A stretch of 64,000 nt of DNA, taken from positions 1,426,001-1,490,000 of the forward strand of contig NZ_LR593886.1 in assembly GCF_901538265.1 (NCBI RefSeq), given 5' to 3'. Positions 58,912 to 64,000 of this stretch are shown here, piece after piece (the stretch's first letter is position 1; each line of letters begins with the position of its first letter). A program made the position numbers and the translations under genes. The stretch is from Gemmata massiliana (GTDB lineage Bacteria; Planctomycetota; Planctomycetia; Gemmatales; Gemmataceae). The notes under the pieces are model-generated. The model did not search any database. It had not been told where the DNA came from and saw nothing but the letters and a program-made list of their open reading frames with translations.

Positions 58912-60678
58912 ATGGCCCGTGACCGCAAACTCCCGCCCACCGGAAACGGCCCCGACTGGGACCGCACCGTGCGCCTGTTCCAATCGGGCGCGCCGGAATT
59001 CGTGGAGGCGATCCGCCAGCGCACGAACGCGCCCGCACTGGCCACGTTCGCCGAGACGTGGTGGACGGACCCGCGGATCGAGGCCAAGCGCCTGCTGTTC
59101 AGTTACCTGGACCTCCCGTTCAACTCCCCGCGGCACGAGCCGCTCGTCAAGCGGTTGTTCAAGTTCGCGGACACGACCGGCGACGACGCGGTGATGGCCC
59201 GGTTCCTCGTCGGGTTCGATCGCACCATCCGGCGCCGGCGCGCGACGAAGCAGAAGTACAATTATCGTTCGCGCGCCTACGAGTCATACGAGTCTGTTTC
59301 GACCCCCGGCGACACGACGCTCTCGCGCGACGACCGCTCGTACTCGGGACCGTGGTTCAGCCAGAACCGCGAGCAATTTACGCGGGGCAAGTTCCTGTTC
59401 TCAGTGGCCACGCGGAACTACTTGCGCCGGCGGGCGTGGCGGTACTTCCGCAAGCTCGGGCGCAAGGAGCCGGCCCGTTACATCCCGGCGGTCTGCGCGG
59501 CGCTGAAGCTCTACACCGACGCGGACGTTCCCGACGGCCTCGCGCTGCTCGACAATTGGGGACTGGTTCACGTCCTGTTCCACCACTCTCCCACGATCGT
59601 CTCGAAGCCGGCGGGGTGGCGCGTCGCGGACGGGGGAACGCTGGCACGGTTGCAGCCGGACCCGATGTTCCGCAAGTTGTGGCTACGCAGCCCGGAGCCG
59701 ATTTTCGACCTGCTCGTGACCGCGAAGTGCCGGGTGGTCGCGACGTGGGCGGTGCAGATGCTCCGCCGGCACTTCCCGGACCGGCTCGCGCAGCTCACGC
59801 TCGACGAGATCCTCGCCTGGGTGACCGCGCCCAACACCGCGCTGAACGAACTCGCGATGGAGTTGCTCGAAGCGCGCGGCGGGCTGGAAGAGGTCAGCAT
59901 CGAGCAGTGGTTGCGCATCACGGACGCGGTGCGCACGGACCTGCTCGACCGGATCTGCGCGATGGTCGAGCGGAACGTGAAGCCGGAGTTGGTTACGTTC
60001 GCGTCCGCGATGCGGCTCGCGATGCAGCGCCCGGTTCCGCTCGCGCGTCTGGGGTTCGCGTTCCTCAAAGGTAAGAAGCCGCGTTCGCCGGAGGAACTGA
60101 CCGCGGTGTTCAACTTGCGGAACGCAGAGGCCGAGCCGCTCCGCGTTGATCTCGTGAAGTGGGCGTGCGAGGTGCTGAGCGAGCGAAGGGACTTTGACCC
60201 GTTGTGGGTGCTGGAGTTCCTTGACAGCCGCTTCGAGGAGGTGCGCGAGGTCGGCTGGGAGTGGCTCCAGACCGAACCGCGTGCGCGCGACGCGATCCTG
60301 GTGTGGCAGCGGCTCCTGGAGTCGCCCTACGACAACATTCGGTTACGCTTGGTGGGAATGTTGGAAGACCGGGCCAAGGAACCGACGGGGCTGACGAAGT
60401 TCTCTCCGGAGCGCGTGCGATTCCTGTGGGCCACGGTGCTCCTGAACGTTCACCGCGGGAGCCGCGCGAAACCGTTCGTGGTGCGGCAAATTATTGATCG
60501 CCTCACGGACCACCCGGACGAGGCCGGCGACCTGCTCCCGATGGTTGCGGTCGCGCTGCGCTCGGTGCGCGGGCCGGAGTTCCGTGCGGGGTTGGCCGGC
60601 GTTGCGGGCTTCGTTGCGAAGAACCCGACGCGGAAGCCGCTCGTGGAAGCGGTCTTTCCGGAGTTACAGTGGAACTAA
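58912..60678 (+). CDS. Large HEAT-like helical protein of unknown function
   Basis: 588 aa from ATG 58912, 83 bp after pdxA. Soluble, no signal. It is rich in Arg/Leu/Trp and appears as an alpha solenoid (HEAT-like) with motifs such as ALATFAETWWTDPRIEAKRL, LVTAKCRVVATWAVQMLRRH, EEVREVGWEWLQTEPRARDA, YDNIRLRLVGMLEDRAKE. The basic stretch RRRRATKQKYNYRSR and aromatic linker are unusual. I cannot name the family. The SWIM gene about 640 bp downstream on the same strand may be functionally linked. Confidence 0.8.
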   Translation: MARDRKLPPTGNGPDWDRTVRLFQSGAPEFVEAIRQRTNAPALATFAETWWTDPRIEAKRLLFSYLDLPFNSPRHEPLVKRLFKFADTTGDDAVMARFLVGFDRTIRRRRATKQKYNYRSRAYESYESVSTPGDTTLSRDDRSYSGPWFSQNREQFTRGKFLFSVATRNYLRRRAWRYFRKLGRKEPARYIPAVCAALKLYTDADVPDGLALLDNWGLVHVLFHHSPTIVSKPAGWRVADGGTLARLQPDPMFRKLWLRSPEPIFDLLVTAKCRVVATWAVQMLRRHFPDRLAQLTLDEILAWVTAPNTALNELAMELLEARGGLEEVSIEQWLRITDAVRTDLLDRICAMVERNVKPELVTFASAMRLAMQRPVPLARLGFAFLKGKKPRSPEELTAVFNLRNAEAEPLRVDLVKWACEVLSERRDFDPLWVLEFLDSRFEEVREVGWEWLQTEPRARDAILVWQRLLESPYDNIRLRLVGMLEDRAKEPTGLTKFSPERVRFLWATVLLNVHRGSRAKPFVVRQIIDRLTDHPDEAGDLLPMVAVALRSVRGPEFRAGLAGVAGFVAKNPTRKPLVEAVFPELQWN

Positions 60679-60712: not shown

Positions 60713-60723
60713 GAAAGAGCTTA

Positions 60724-60935
60724 CGGTGTCCGTCGCGATCCGAGACCACCATGCTGCGATGTTCCGTCGCGGTTGAAGTTGCTCGCGATTGCGTCCCCAG
60801 GTGCGTTGTTCTTGTTCGCCGTGGCGTAAGGCCATGCGGCGAGCTGAATCAACCCGAGTCCTCGCCGCATGGCCTTACGCCACGGCGTCGTGAACGCATC
60901 TGGTCCTCGATTGAAGTCGGTTGCGGCGGACACCG
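60724..60935. repeat. Variable-stem hairpin element, copy A
   Basis: 212 nt. Outer stem 60724-60736 / 60923-60935 (12 of 13 pairs). Conserved 5' module about 60740-60816 (GCGATTGCGTCCCC, GTGCGTTGTTCTT). Inner perfect 27-bp stem 60817-60843 / 60861-60887. Apical 17-nt loop CTGAATCAACCCGAGTC (60844-60860). Conserved 3' module about 60888-60920 (GAACGCATCTGGTCC, ATTGAAGTCGG). The inner stem sequence is unrelated to those of copies B and C. Confidence 0.85.
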
Positions 60936-60948
60936 CAATACAAGGGTG

Positions 60949-61053
60949 AACCCCGCCCGCAAGGGCGGTGGGTAGCCCAACAATTAATGGCAATGGTGAT
61001 TGGCGGTCAACCTTTGGTAGTGAGTTTCACCCACCGCCCTTGCGGGCGGGGTT
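60949..61053. repeat. 25-bp inverted repeat with self-complementary arms
   Basis: Arms 60949-60973 and 61029-61053 are perfect complements across a 55-nt loop. Each arm can also fold alone: CCGCCC-GCAA-GGGCGG on the left, CCGCCC-TTGC-GGGCGG on the right. It sits exactly between hairpin elements A and B. A related single hairpin with changed but paired stem lies at 63803-63818, just after element C. Confidence 0.8.
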
Positions 61054-61073
61054 CGCCAAGATTGCCAAAACTT

Positions 61074-61274
61074 GGGTGGTGGTTCCGAGACCTTCTCTGC
61101 GGCGCTCCGCCGCGGGTGCGATTGCTAGCGATTGCGTTCCCCGTGTCGTTGTTCTTTTCGCCGCCCGGGGGTACCCCTGGACGGGCGGAATCAACCTGCG
61201 TTCCCGTCCAGGGGTACCCCCGGGCGGCGTTCGTGAACGACTCGGGTCCACGATAGAAGTCGGTTCCACCGCCC
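61074..61274. repeat. Variable-stem hairpin element, copy B
   Basis: 201 nt. Outer stem 61074-61088 / 61260-61274 (12 of 15 pairs). 5' module 61085-61158 with its own small hairpin GCGGCG-CTC-CGCCGC (61099-61113). Inner perfect 27-bp stem 61159-61185 / 61203-61229. Loop CGGAATCAACCTGCGTT (61186-61202). 3' module with GAACGACTCGGGTCC and GAAGTCGG. Ends 46 bp before the SWIM gene, so it may lie in its leader. Confidence 0.85.
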
Positions 61275-61320
61275 ATGATTCCCAGGCGCCTTGCCAACGG
61301 CGGGCGCGAGAGGTCGCTGA

Positions 61321-63015
61321 ATGCTGCTGAACACGGCGTATCGCGGGCGGAGCAACGTCGCGCAGACCCCCGTCGGCTTGGCGGTGTCGCTCGCGCCCAA
61401 CTTGCGGCGCGACCGCGTGAGTTTCGTCGGCGTGCTGCGGCAACCGCTCCGGTTCCGCGAAGCGATGTCGGCCCTTCACGACGTCGTCATTTCCGATTTG
61501 CGCTTCAAGCCGAAGGACAAAACCGGCTACGAGGAGTGGAAGAAGCAGGAGGCCGCGAAGGAAGCCCGCATCCGCACTGAGGCCGTGAAACTCAAGCGCG
61601 CGGAACTGGAGAAGGAGCGCGGCCGCCCGATGCCGCGCAACTTGGAACGACAGTTCCAGAAGTGCCGGCAGCGGTACTGGGAGGCGCGCACGCGGTACGG
61701 CACGCTACTCTCGCGCGAAGACCCGGAACTGTGGCGCATGCTGATGCCGTGCGACCCGGTTATCACCGTTAGCCCGGACGTGATGTTCTTCGAGTGCTTC
61801 AGCGCGGACGAGAGCAGTTACGGGTGCCTGACGGTCGAGCGCGAGGCGTTCGAGGCCGAAACCGACGTGGCGCTCGGCACCACGAACGTCGATTACTCGT
61901 GGCGCCTCTACGAGCACTTCCAGACCATTCGGAGTTATCGCGAGACGCGCTTCACCATCGACCCGATGGGTTTCGAGGTGCAAACCACCGCAGACGAGGC
62001 CGGCTACCGCGAAGAGAAGATCGACCTGCCGCAATCGTGGTTGCGCGGGTTCTCGGCGCTGCAATCGGCGATGAGTTTGCCGATGCGCCGCGTGCCCGTG
62101 AGCCGCGAAGGGATTTACGCGCTGGTCGCGTTCCTGAAGCGCAACAAGGCGAAGGCGTCGCCGCGCGCGGTCCGGTTCGAGCTAACGCCCGGCGCGCCAG
62201 TGAAGATCGTGCTCGAGCCGTGGAACAAGGAAATCGTTCTCCACGACACGCCGTACCCCGGTCCGCGCAAAGAGGTGATTCGCACTTGGGGACGCGACCG
62301 GCTCCGCGTGTTGGGTCGGCTCCTTCCGCTGCTCGATGGCGTGGACGTGTACCTGCTCGGGACGGGTCTGCCCAGCTTCTGGGTCGCGAAGATGGGCGAG
62401 ATGAAGCTGACGCTCGGACTCTCGGGGTGGACCACGAACGACTGGACCAGCGGCGGCAGCGCGATCGATCAGCTCGCGCCGCCCGTCGCGCCTCCTGTCG
62501 AGGTGATGAACGCGATGGCGGCGGCGTTCAAGCAATCGCCGACGTGGACCCTCGACGCGCTCGCGAGCAAGACCCGCACGTCGGCCCCGGCGGTATCGGC
62601 CGGGCTGAACAAGCTCGCGCTTCTGGGGCAGGTGATTCACGATCTGCCACACGGTGTGTACCGGTGGCGCCAGGTGATGCCGGTCACGCTCTCGGCCGAG
62701 GTCATCGGCCCGGAAAACGAAGAGACGGTCGCCGCACGCGACCTGGGCCGGTGGAAGTGCCGCATCACGTCCGACAGCTTGGACGCGAAGCGGCAGCGCC
62801 GCATCGTCGGCACGGTGGACGGGCGGTCCGGGTCCGAGGTCACGCTGGACGCGGACGACCGCATCGTGGCGGGGAAGTGTTCGTGTTCGTACTTCTACAC
62901 GGGCGGCCTGCGGAAGGGTCCGTGCCGGCACTTGCAAGCGCTCCGCAACCAGGCGCTCGACATCGGCACGGACGGCGGCACGCTGGACACGTGGTTCAAG
63001 CGGTTCACGAACTAA
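61321..63015 (+). CDS. SWIM zinc-finger protein
   Basis: 564 aa, cytoplasmic. The C-terminal motif CSCSYFYTGGLRKGPCRHLQ (about 520-539) is the C-x-C-x(n)-C-x-H SWIM finger. The N-terminal region (about 1-130) is charged and helical (DKTGYEEWKKQEAAKEARIR). The middle (about 130-500) is mixed, with a winged-helix-like stretch (TWTLDALASKTRTSAPAVSA). SWIM fingers bind DNA or proteins; bacterial SWIM proteins are often linked to MoxR-type ATPase and VWA genes, none of which is visible in this window. ATG 61321. Translationally close to the next gene (16-bp gap). Confidence 0.88.
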   Translation: MLLNTAYRGRSNVAQTPVGLAVSLAPNLRRDRVSFVGVLRQPLRFREAMSALHDVVISDLRFKPKDKTGYEEWKKQEAAKEARIRTEAVKLKRAELEKERGRPMPRNLERQFQKCRQRYWEARTRYGTLLSREDPELWRMLMPCDPVITVSPDVMFFECFSADESSYGCLTVEREAFEAETDVALGTTNVDYSWRLYEHFQTIRSYRETRFTIDPMGFEVQTTADEAGYREEKIDLPQSWLRGFSALQSAMSLPMRRVPVSREGIYALVAFLKRNKAKASPRAVRFELTPGAPVKIVLEPWNKEIVLHDTPYPGPRKEVIRTWGRDRLRVLGRLLPLLDGVDVYLLGTGLPSFWVAKMGEMKLTLGLSGWTTNDWTSGGSAIDQLAPPVAPPVEVMNAMAAAFKQSPTWTLDALASKTRTSAPAVSAGLNKLALLGQVIHDLPHGVYRWRQVMPVTLSAEVIGPENEETVAARDLGRWKCRITSDSLDAKRQRRIVGTVDGRSGSEVTLDADDRIVAGKCSCSYFYTGGLRKGPCRHLQALRNQALDIGTDGGTLDTWFKRFTN

Positions 63016-63031
63016 CCCAAGGGGTTCTCTG

Positions 63032-63517
63032 GTGACGAAGTCGGTTCTGTTCGCGGGCGTGCTCGGGGGGCTGCTCGGTGGGTTCGGGGGCTACGCGCTG
63101 TTGCGAACGCTCCCGTCGGCGACGAAGTCCGCGGGGGGCGAGAAATCAGCACCGAGCGAAACGCGCGAGCGGGCCGATGAATTGGTCACCAAGCTCCGCA
63201 CGGGACAGGAAGAAGAGTTCTTCAATATGCTCCGCACGGGGTTCGTTGATCCGCTCAACGACGAACAGTTCGGGCGGCTCCGGCAAGGGATCGTCGAGTG
63301 GCGGCAGAAGTTCGCACAAGAGTACGGCGCGCCTGGGGATTTCGAGTTCGGCCGCGAAACCGTGCTCAGTCCCTCGCTGGTCCGCGTCGCATACGTGGTG
63401 AAGCACGCGCACGGGGCCGTGGTGTGCTTCGTCATCTTTTACAAGCCGGCGAACGACTGGCGGATTCTCGCTTTCAGCTTCAAACCGCTGGAAACCGCGT
63501 TCGACATGTTGCGCTGA
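63032..63517 (+). CDS. Small membrane-anchored protein
   Basis: 161 aa from GTG 63032, 16 bp after the SWIM stop. An N-terminal glycine-rich anchor (SVLFAGVLGGLLGGFGGYAL) is followed by a soluble alpha/beta domain of about 110 residues (ELVTKLRTGQEEEFFNMLRT, SLVRVAYVVKHAHGAVVCFV, DWRILAFSFKPLETAFDML). The fold pattern resembles NTF2/SnoaL-like or DUF4019-like domains, but this is uncertain. Likely co-transcribed with the SWIM gene. Confidence 0.7.
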   Translation: MTKSVLFAGVLGGLLGGFGGYALLRTLPSATKSAGGEKSAPSETRERADELVTKLRTGQEEEFFNMLRTGFVDPLNDEQFGRLRQGIVEWRQKFAQEYGAPGDFEFGRETVLSPSLVRVAYVVKHAHGAVVCFVIFYKPANDWRILAFSFKPLETAFDMLR

Positions 63518-63588
63518 GTGCATTCGGACGATTGCGACCGCGTGGCACGGATGAGCGCCTGTGTGTCTAACAGAGTGACTGAAGTCAA

Positions 63589-63789
63589 GCGACCGGCTCC
63601 GAGACTTAAACATCCTGCGGCGCTCCGCCGCGGGTGCGGTTGCTTGCGATTGCGTTCCCAGGTGCGTTGTTCTTTTACGTCCCTGGACAAGTTAGTCCGC
63701 GACTGAAAAGACCGGTGTCTCTCGGACTAACTTGTCCAGGGACGTTGTGTGAACGCATCTGGTCCACGATTGAAGTCGGAGCCGGTCGC
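63589..63789. repeat. Variable-stem hairpin element, copy C
   Basis: 201 nt, the same length as copy B. Outer stem 63589-63602 / 63776-63789 is a perfect 14 bp. 5' module 63599-63676 with hairpin GCGGCG-CTC-CGCCGC, GCGATTGCGTTCCC and GTGCGTTGTTCTT. Inner stem 63677-63699 / 63723-63745, 23 bp perfect. Central loop CTGAAAAGACCGGTGTC (63703-63719). 3' module GAACGCATCTGGTCCACGAT then TGAAGTCGG. Confidence 0.85.
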
Positions 63790-63802
63790 CTTGTTTTACC
63801 CA

Positions 63803-63818
63803 CCGACCGCGCGGTCGG
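63803..63818. repeat. Small hairpin next to element C
   Basis: CCGACC-GCGC-GGTCGG within the flank ACCCACCG...CGGGGTTCG. Compared with 61029-61053, the same flanks hold CCGCCC/GGGCGG, so the stem base pair has changed on both sides. Confidence 0.6.
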
Positions 63819-63840
63819 GGTTCGTCGTGCGAGCGCTGCT

Positions 63841-64000
63841 ATGAGCATGTTCGACTGGATCTTCCGGCGCAAGCGCGACACAACTCCGACCCCGGAAAGT
63901 GCTCCGCCCTCTGTTCCCTCGACGCCCGACCCGCGCGGGCAGCAACCCGCACCCAAAGCCGAACCACAAGCGGAAACACCCGCCGACCCGTACTCCGCGT
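63841..64000 (+). CDS. N-terminus of an unknown protein (partial)
   Basis: ATG 63841 opens a frame that runs past the window end: MSMFDWIFRRKRDTTPTPES, then a Pro/Ala-rich stretch (PPSVPSTPDPRGQQPAPKAE). The amphipathic, basic start followed by a Pro-rich linker is like regulators or scaffolds tethered to the membrane. Nothing more can be said without the rest. ATG 63847 is an alternative start in the same frame. Confidence 0.6.
   Translation, partial: MSMFDWIFRRKRDTTPTPESAPPSVPSTPDPRGQQPAPKAEPQAETPADPYSA

Follow-up and report, generated by a model that had tools for sequence, protein, structure and literature searches.

In known retrons, which defend bacteria against phages, an effector is guarded by multicopy single-stranded DNA (msDNA) and is triggered by phage proteins that act on this msDNA (PMC12548924, PMC13158370, PMC13405049). 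The triggers include phage methyltransferases (PMC12548924), phage single-stranded-DNA-binding protein (PMC13158370), and a helix-turn-helix protein that binds the stem loop (PMC13405049), and whether the sequence of the msd stem carries specificity is an open question (PMC13158370). Here we describe a locus of Gemmata massiliana in a stretch of 64,000 nucleotides, hereafter the window (positions 1,426,001 to 1,490,000 of contig NZ_LR593886.1, written G000:C1:1426001-1490000, where G000 is the 10.1-Mb source genome). It holds three hairpin elements of about 200 nt (copies A, B, and C) with a constant frame, a 17-nt loop, and inner stems that are unrelated between copies yet paired, and all three were found again as a preliminary description, made from the letters of the window alone, had reported them. 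Judged by their sequence and surroundings, these elements very probably encode the msr-msd RNAs of a type XIII retron, composed of HEAT-ARM, SWIM, and reverse transcriptase (RT) proteins. The earlier suggestion that they are retron-like has thus turned out to be literally right, and type XIII has SWIM, whose gene they flank, among its named components.

The earlier remark that no reverse transcriptase is visible reflected the edge of the window, where the RT gene starts at 63841, about 50 nt 3′ of copy C, and runs off the end; a search of the genome for reverse transcriptases located it at G000:C1:1490582-1491190. By PADLOC models this RT is assigned to type XIII: RT_XIII came first of 60 matches, with 517.6 bits and E 8.6e-156. 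Among proteins of solved structure, retron RTs such as Ec86 (2e-57) are the closest to it. The RT contains the motifs YADD, NAxxH, and VTG, and in a set of 14 RTs from several families YADD and VTG are invariant and NAxxH nearly so. Its HEAT-ARM and SWIM partners share the operon (order HEAT-ARM, copy A, copy B, SWIM, a small open reading frame (ORF), copy C, RT), and the order HEAT, SWIM, RT is kept in relatives. The features of a retron non-coding RNA (ncRNA) are present as well: a position 5′ of the RT, outer inverted repeats (a1/a2), an msr hairpin, and a long msd stem-loop.

The same association recurs far beyond the source genome. A covariance model of the element (R1) was used on 95 genomes of the family Gemmataceae and matched in 29 of them, with about 70 matches of at least 49 bits in the fetched loci, halves and contig-end pieces counted; an improved model built from 32 copies (R2) matched in 28 of 102 genomes of the order, most of which have at least two copies. 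In nearly all positive Gemmataceae genomes the matches adjoin this RT subtype, and the layout HEAT, ncRNA, SWIM, ncRNA, RT is recurrent among the relatives. The templates mostly number 2-7 per positive genome, some of them at conserved sites far from the RT, and genome G074 has up to seven copies with a single RT of this subtype. When R2 was used on 391 other Planctomycetota genomes, seven matches were obtained, one copy each and all adjoining HEAT-ARM and SWIM genes; SWIM and RT enclose six of these copies, and the remaining one is found past SWIM, where the contig ends. Loci of Verrucomicrobiota and of Polyangium and Myxococcus among the Myxococcota, found by their RT alone, each have one copy 5′ of the RT, and where other families and phyla have their single copy, the present operon has copy C. 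Copies that recur beside the same genes across phyla strongly support the reading of the element as the ncRNA of the retron, with multiplicity as a trait of the Gemmataceae.

In the source genome, sequence search and covariance model revealed only one further convincing copy, D (G000:C1:858355-858567), which lies between ordinary genes about 0.63 Mb from the operon and brings the total to four. In copies A, B, and C the arms of the inner stem are always 17 nt apart, and the loops of B and C agree with that of A at 13 and 12 of 17 positions, as stated before. The inner stems, given earlier as 27, 27, and 23 perfect base pairs (bp), were likewise recovered, that of copy C spanning 26 nt with 96% complementarity and 23 uninterrupted pairs (Table 1). 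The limits of copy C stood, whereas copy A proved longer than described, with an outer stem of 16 nt, and copy B was set at 61073-61274. RNA folding of the three copies lies 10-11.6 standard deviations below dinucleotide shuffles. An unpaired G after CCGA, invariant in 32 aligned copies, is a candidate branching G next to a1. A search of Rfam gave nothing at the gathering score, and the chance matches to microRNA hairpins fell far below it.

The preliminary description had let its reading depend on further copies and on covariation; besides copy D, the searches returned dozens of copies in relatives, and covariation is evident. RNAalifold on four copies gave a poor structure for the inner stem, and a structure set by hand on 32 copies was used instead, in which 47 of the 59 pairs changed on both sides and the covariation score is 0.492, against 0.173 for shuffled and 0.12-0.20 for slid controls. 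The exchange of TGCGTT/AACGCA for GTCGTT/AACGAC, already proposed as compensatory, is real, and the helix concerned covaries across the 32 sequences. In the inner stem all four Watson-Crick pair types are found at most positions. When 59 distinct stems were compared with their arms aligned and G.U and A.C scored alike, 1506 cells included 1477 Watson-Crick, 4 G.U, and 18 A.C; a separate set of inner stems from other phyla gave 408, 1, and 16, respectively, and helix 4 shows no G.U in 292 paired cells, compared to G.U shares of 19% in hairpin 1 and 18% in the outer stem, all being counts of cells that are not phylogenetically independent, where a process that copies perfect stems would also yield few G.U. 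Selection on an RNA helix should let G.U pass more readily than A.C, which is not expected of a DNA helix; the near absence of G.U therefore argues for maintenance of the inner stem and helix 4 in the form of DNA, and for the inner stem we consider this probable. The presumed msd, folded as single-stranded DNA, adopts the same hairpin. We infer that the inner stem and helix 4 form the msd, hairpin 1 the msr, and the outer stem a1/a2. Where pairing within the stems fails, it is usually by an A of the 5′ arm facing a C of the 3′ arm (14, vs. 4 of the reverse), which is a strand asymmetry.

Comparison of orthologous sites reveals how these stems change. Between the source genome and the related genome G009, identity at fourfold sites is 90.6% in the RT gene and 81.3% in the SWIM gene, and in copies A-D the 5′ module is 97-99% identical and the outer stems are the same. 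The inner stems of copies A, C, and D, with identities of 0.48, 0.39, and 0.42, are at the level of shuffled sequence (mean 0.49, 99th percentile 0.64). That of copy B is identical between the two genomes, and so is that of copy A between G009 and G011. Since the orthologous loop is kept between replaced arms (16/17 in copy A), both arms have been exchanged together while the loop stayed. A partial exchange is seen between L160 and L162, where a middle block of the stem differs and is altered on both arms. Rewriting of the inner stem between orthologous sites is therefore a supported conclusion at the sequence level. The earlier claim that stems are rewritten holds for this inner part and fails for the outer stems, which differ between copies of one genome but are conserved between orthologous copies. 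Words of 10-11 nt recur in unrelated copies above shuffles. The stems L095:5119 and L129:5258, from different genera and sites, share the palindrome-like word AGCGAACAAGTTCG. Restriction or methylation palindromes (GGTACC, ACCGGT, GAATTC, and GATATC are striking by eye) were also counted and discarded as a signal, with 33 six-base palindromes vs. 42 in dinucleotide shuffles, and gapped palindromes in the stems showed no enrichment.

Orphan copies away from the RT, with their pairing, are retained at conserved sites. The site of copy D is also occupied in G009, G010, G011, G012, G024, and G025, which with the source genome makes at least seven genomes, and a second orphan site (E) is common to at least four (G014, G015, G018, and G022). 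In G011, site D is broken by a transposase-like insertion; in G012, where an RT of this subtype is lacking, the msd stem has gone from the copy at this site. Far from the RT of G074, three tandem copies lie within 700 nt (L117:4987-5689), each with a different stem.

Of the two partner proteins, SWIM has no relative of solved structure by sequence search. Its structural model, compared with solved structures by Foldseek, had sliding clamps (PCNA, 9-1-1) as all of the top 50 matches, and alignment to a sliding clamp with VIA-align gave Z 12.6 over 181 residues at 3.8 Å. Residues ~50-374 are accordingly predicted to form a PCNA-like part, a lead drawn from a low-confidence model, and a subunit of this kind would be a surprising component of a retron effector. 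The HEAT-ARM protein, modeled by AlphaFold2 with a predicted local distance difference test (pLDDT) score of 80, is helical nearly throughout, and its matches among solved structures are generic helical repeats only. In neither protein was an effector enzyme or a Pfam or NCBIfam match found.

These observations can be assembled into a plausible scenario. Each element would be transcribed as an RNA closed by its outer stem (a1/a2), with the 5′ module (CCGAGAC, a GC hairpin, and GCGATTGCGT) as its msr; branching may occur at the invariant unpaired G that follows CCGA. From the 3′ part, which comprises helix 4, the variable inner stem, and the 17-nt loop, the RT would make msDNA. Recognition by the shared proteins may depend on the frame and the loop, so that the inner stem need only be a DNA duplex of ~27 bp. 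In the source genome one RT would thus meet three operon templates and copy D, probably giving mixed msDNAs with different stems; that all copies are used by one RT, the orphans in trans, seems likely. The duplex could be gripped independently of its sequence, perhaps by the clamp-like SWIM, leaving the stem sequence exposed to DNA-binding or DNA-modifying proteins of phages; binding or damage of the msDNA by the phage would release the HEAT/SWIM effector, and diversity of the stems would widen the range of sensing or escape phage decoys. A constant frame with different stems in the msDNA set fits a sensor repertoire. We are rather confident in the overall model of one RT yielding several msDNAs with a shared frame and differing duplex stems. 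That these form a selected sensor repertoire is no more than plausible, and equally tentative is the fullest version, a diversified innate sensor library in which one RT and effector set serves 3-7 msr-msd RNAs, distant orphans included, with stems replaced under selection by a rewriting process that acts on both arms and a PCNA-like clamp as holder. If templates work in trans with an unrelated stem, they would be useful for DNA production in cells.

Other explanations of the elements have to be weighed against this scenario. Several copies per genome, inverted repeats, the tandem array of three in G074 (L117), and a true REP-like repeat between copies A and B might suggest mobile palindromic elements, like miniature inverted-repeat transposable elements (MITEs) or repetitive extragenic palindromic (REP) sequences, that came to lie in the operon by chance. 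This is scarcely credible: the copies are few and occupy conserved syntenic sites, no shared ends or target duplications were seen, every copy outside the Gemmataceae adjoins retron genes, and mobile copies would share stems. The conserved gene association and the covariation refute it, and the preliminary description was correct in setting REP elements and ordinary MITEs aside, as there are four copies in 10.1 Mb, at conserved sites, with differing outer and inner stems. Of its two other suggestions, a template-switch process and a structured regulatory RNA, the latter is not supported if unconnected to the RT. A cis-acting regulatory RNA of the operon that is not reverse transcribed would account for elements that are intergenic, on the same strand, and among operon genes, but we hold it improbable, as orphan copies adjoin unrelated genes and G.U is nearly absent from the inner stem and helix 4 while present in the other helices. 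More improbable still is a spacer-like uptake of stems from phages or mobile DNA, with the msDNA then recognizing its target by base pairing. Although whole stems are replaced within a kept frame and the short words recur in unrelated copies, stems A, B, and C have no exact 21-nt match in viral contigs (IMG/VR), an 18-mer of stem C has no match in GTDB genomes, and stems A and C are found nowhere else in the source genome with 2-3 mismatches allowed. In addition, a stem held closed in a hairpin of 27 bp is ill suited to act as a guide.

The serious alternative is an msr-msd whose stem sequence has no function, a perfect duplex of fixed length being sufficient; stems would drift neutrally, with pairing kept by hairpin-templated correction or RT-mediated rewriting, and extra copies would be tolerated duplicates. 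We regard this as possible rather than probable. It agrees with stems that have no shared target motif and are not enriched in palindromes, that do not derive from known viral or genomic sequence, and in which a block can be altered in step on the two arms (L160 vs. L162), and a clamp-like partner, as predicted, would grip DNA without reading it. On the other hand, stems have either stayed the same over 27 bp beside fourfold sites with 19% divergence (two cases, P ~0.004 for each) or reached random level at fourfold-site divergences of 9-25%, and steady drift does not predict both patterns; nor does it sit well with orphan copies and pairing kept at conserved sites. The favored model, in turn, has several points to answer. 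One stem is common to three Polyangium species, which means that turnover is lineage dependent and not universal; the lack of viral matches to stems A, B, and C counts here too, and since palindromic sites are not enriched, a role as bait for site-specific methylases in particular is unsupported. The clamp prediction for SWIM is based on a model with a mean pLDDT of just 54. Moreover, G024, a 96% complete draft, has an intact orphan copy while no RT of the subtype was found there, so that the link between RT loss and orphan msd-stem loss seen in G012 is suggestive only.

Table 1. Features of the type XIII retron locus, in positions of the window
Feature	Position	Strand	Remarks
HEAT/ARM-repeat protein gene	58912..60678	+	PADLOC HEAT-ARM_XIII 596.7 bits, E 1.3e-179; ATG at 58912 assumed
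ncRNA copy A (putative msr-msd)	60721..60938	+	between HEAT-ARM and SWIM genes; outer arms 60721-60736 / 60923-60938
Copy A helix 4, base of inner stem	60797..60903	+	CCAGGTGCGTT 60797-60807 with AACGCATCTGG 60893-60903; covaries
Copy A inner (putative msd) stem, 5′ arm	60817..60843	+	27 nt, 100% complementary to 60861-60887
Copy A apical loop, CTGAATCAACCCGAGTC	60844..60860	+	kept between orthologues (16/17) despite replaced stem
Copy A inner (putative msd) stem, 3′ arm	60861..60887	+	pairs with 60817-60843
ncRNA copy B (putative msr-msd)	61073..61274	+	just 5′ of SWIM gene
Copy B inner stem and loop	61159..61229	+	arms 61159-61185 / 61203-61229, loop 61186-61202; 27 nt, 100% complementary
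SWIM protein gene	61321..63015	+	PADLOC SWIM_XIII 598.3 bits; C-terminal SWIM zinc finger
Small accessory ORF, 161 aa	63032..63517	+	between SWIM gene and copy C
ncRNA copy C (putative msr-msd)	63589..63789	+	directly 5′ of RT; outer arms 63589-63602 / 63776-63789
Copy C inner stem and loop	63677..63745	+	arms 63677-63702 / 63720-63745, loop 63703-63719
Reverse transcriptase gene, 5′ part	63841..64000	+	528 aa; runs past window to G000:C1:1491427 (= L013:4842-6428)

The product of the small ORF (161 aa) has a hydrophobic N-terminus and diverged homologues (36-51%) in some relatives, being absent in others, and no family match was found for it in PADLOC, Pfam, or NCBIfam. A REP-like palindrome, GAACCCCGCCCGCAAGGGCGGTGGGT, stands between copies A and B (60945-60973 / 61029-61057) and after copy C (63797-63823); its pattern has 24 exact matches genome-wide, several as inverted pairs, and the reversed control pattern has none. 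The source genome contains nine reverse transcriptase genes, at least four of which are within reach of the RT_XIII model, and one of its loci (L115, G000:C1:7590000-7606000) holds an RT_XIII of a second subtype, accompanied by a SWIM gene of its own. The loci of this second subtype (L114-L116, L118, and L119) gave no match to R2, and the inverted repeats there are of other kinds.

Retron types were reportedly classified by Mestre et al. in 2020. A literature search found no description of a type XIII ncRNA or of a multi-ncRNA retron, the 2020 classification paper being outside that search. In comparison with type XIII retrons as represented in PADLOC (RT_XIII, SWIM_XIII, and HEAT-ARM_XIII), the present locus agrees in that all three proteins match strongly, an ncRNA lies beside the RT, and outer inverted repeats are present, but it differs in having several ncRNAs per RT, orphan ncRNAs, and wholesale replacement of stems. 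With the retrons Ec86, Sen2-like, Asa1/Squ1, Eco8, and Kva2 it shares the RT family and an msr hairpin followed by a long msd stem-loop. In those systems the stem is the part that phage factors act on, and one ncRNA per system is described (PMC12548924, PMC13405049, PMC13158370); their effectors are NDT, TIR, OLD, or HEPN, as against HEAT-ARM and SWIM here. Diversity-generating retroelements are similar in that their RT, too, neighbors a locus where a constant frame encloses a hypervariable part. Here, in contrast, the adenine mutagenesis pattern is missing, the variable part is self-complementary RNA or DNA and not a protein-coding repeat, and the RT is of the retron family; a template/variable repeat pair was not seen near the RT, although no systematic search was made. 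A single RT and effector set accompanied by templates that are nearly alike outside the stem, together with orthologous sites at which only the stem has been replaced, offers a natural experiment on stem specificity. The retron type itself being known, what our sequence comparisons appear to add to it is the presence of several templates per genome, the replacement of the inner stem at orthologous sites, a stem probably kept as DNA, and the prediction of a clamp-like SWIM protein.

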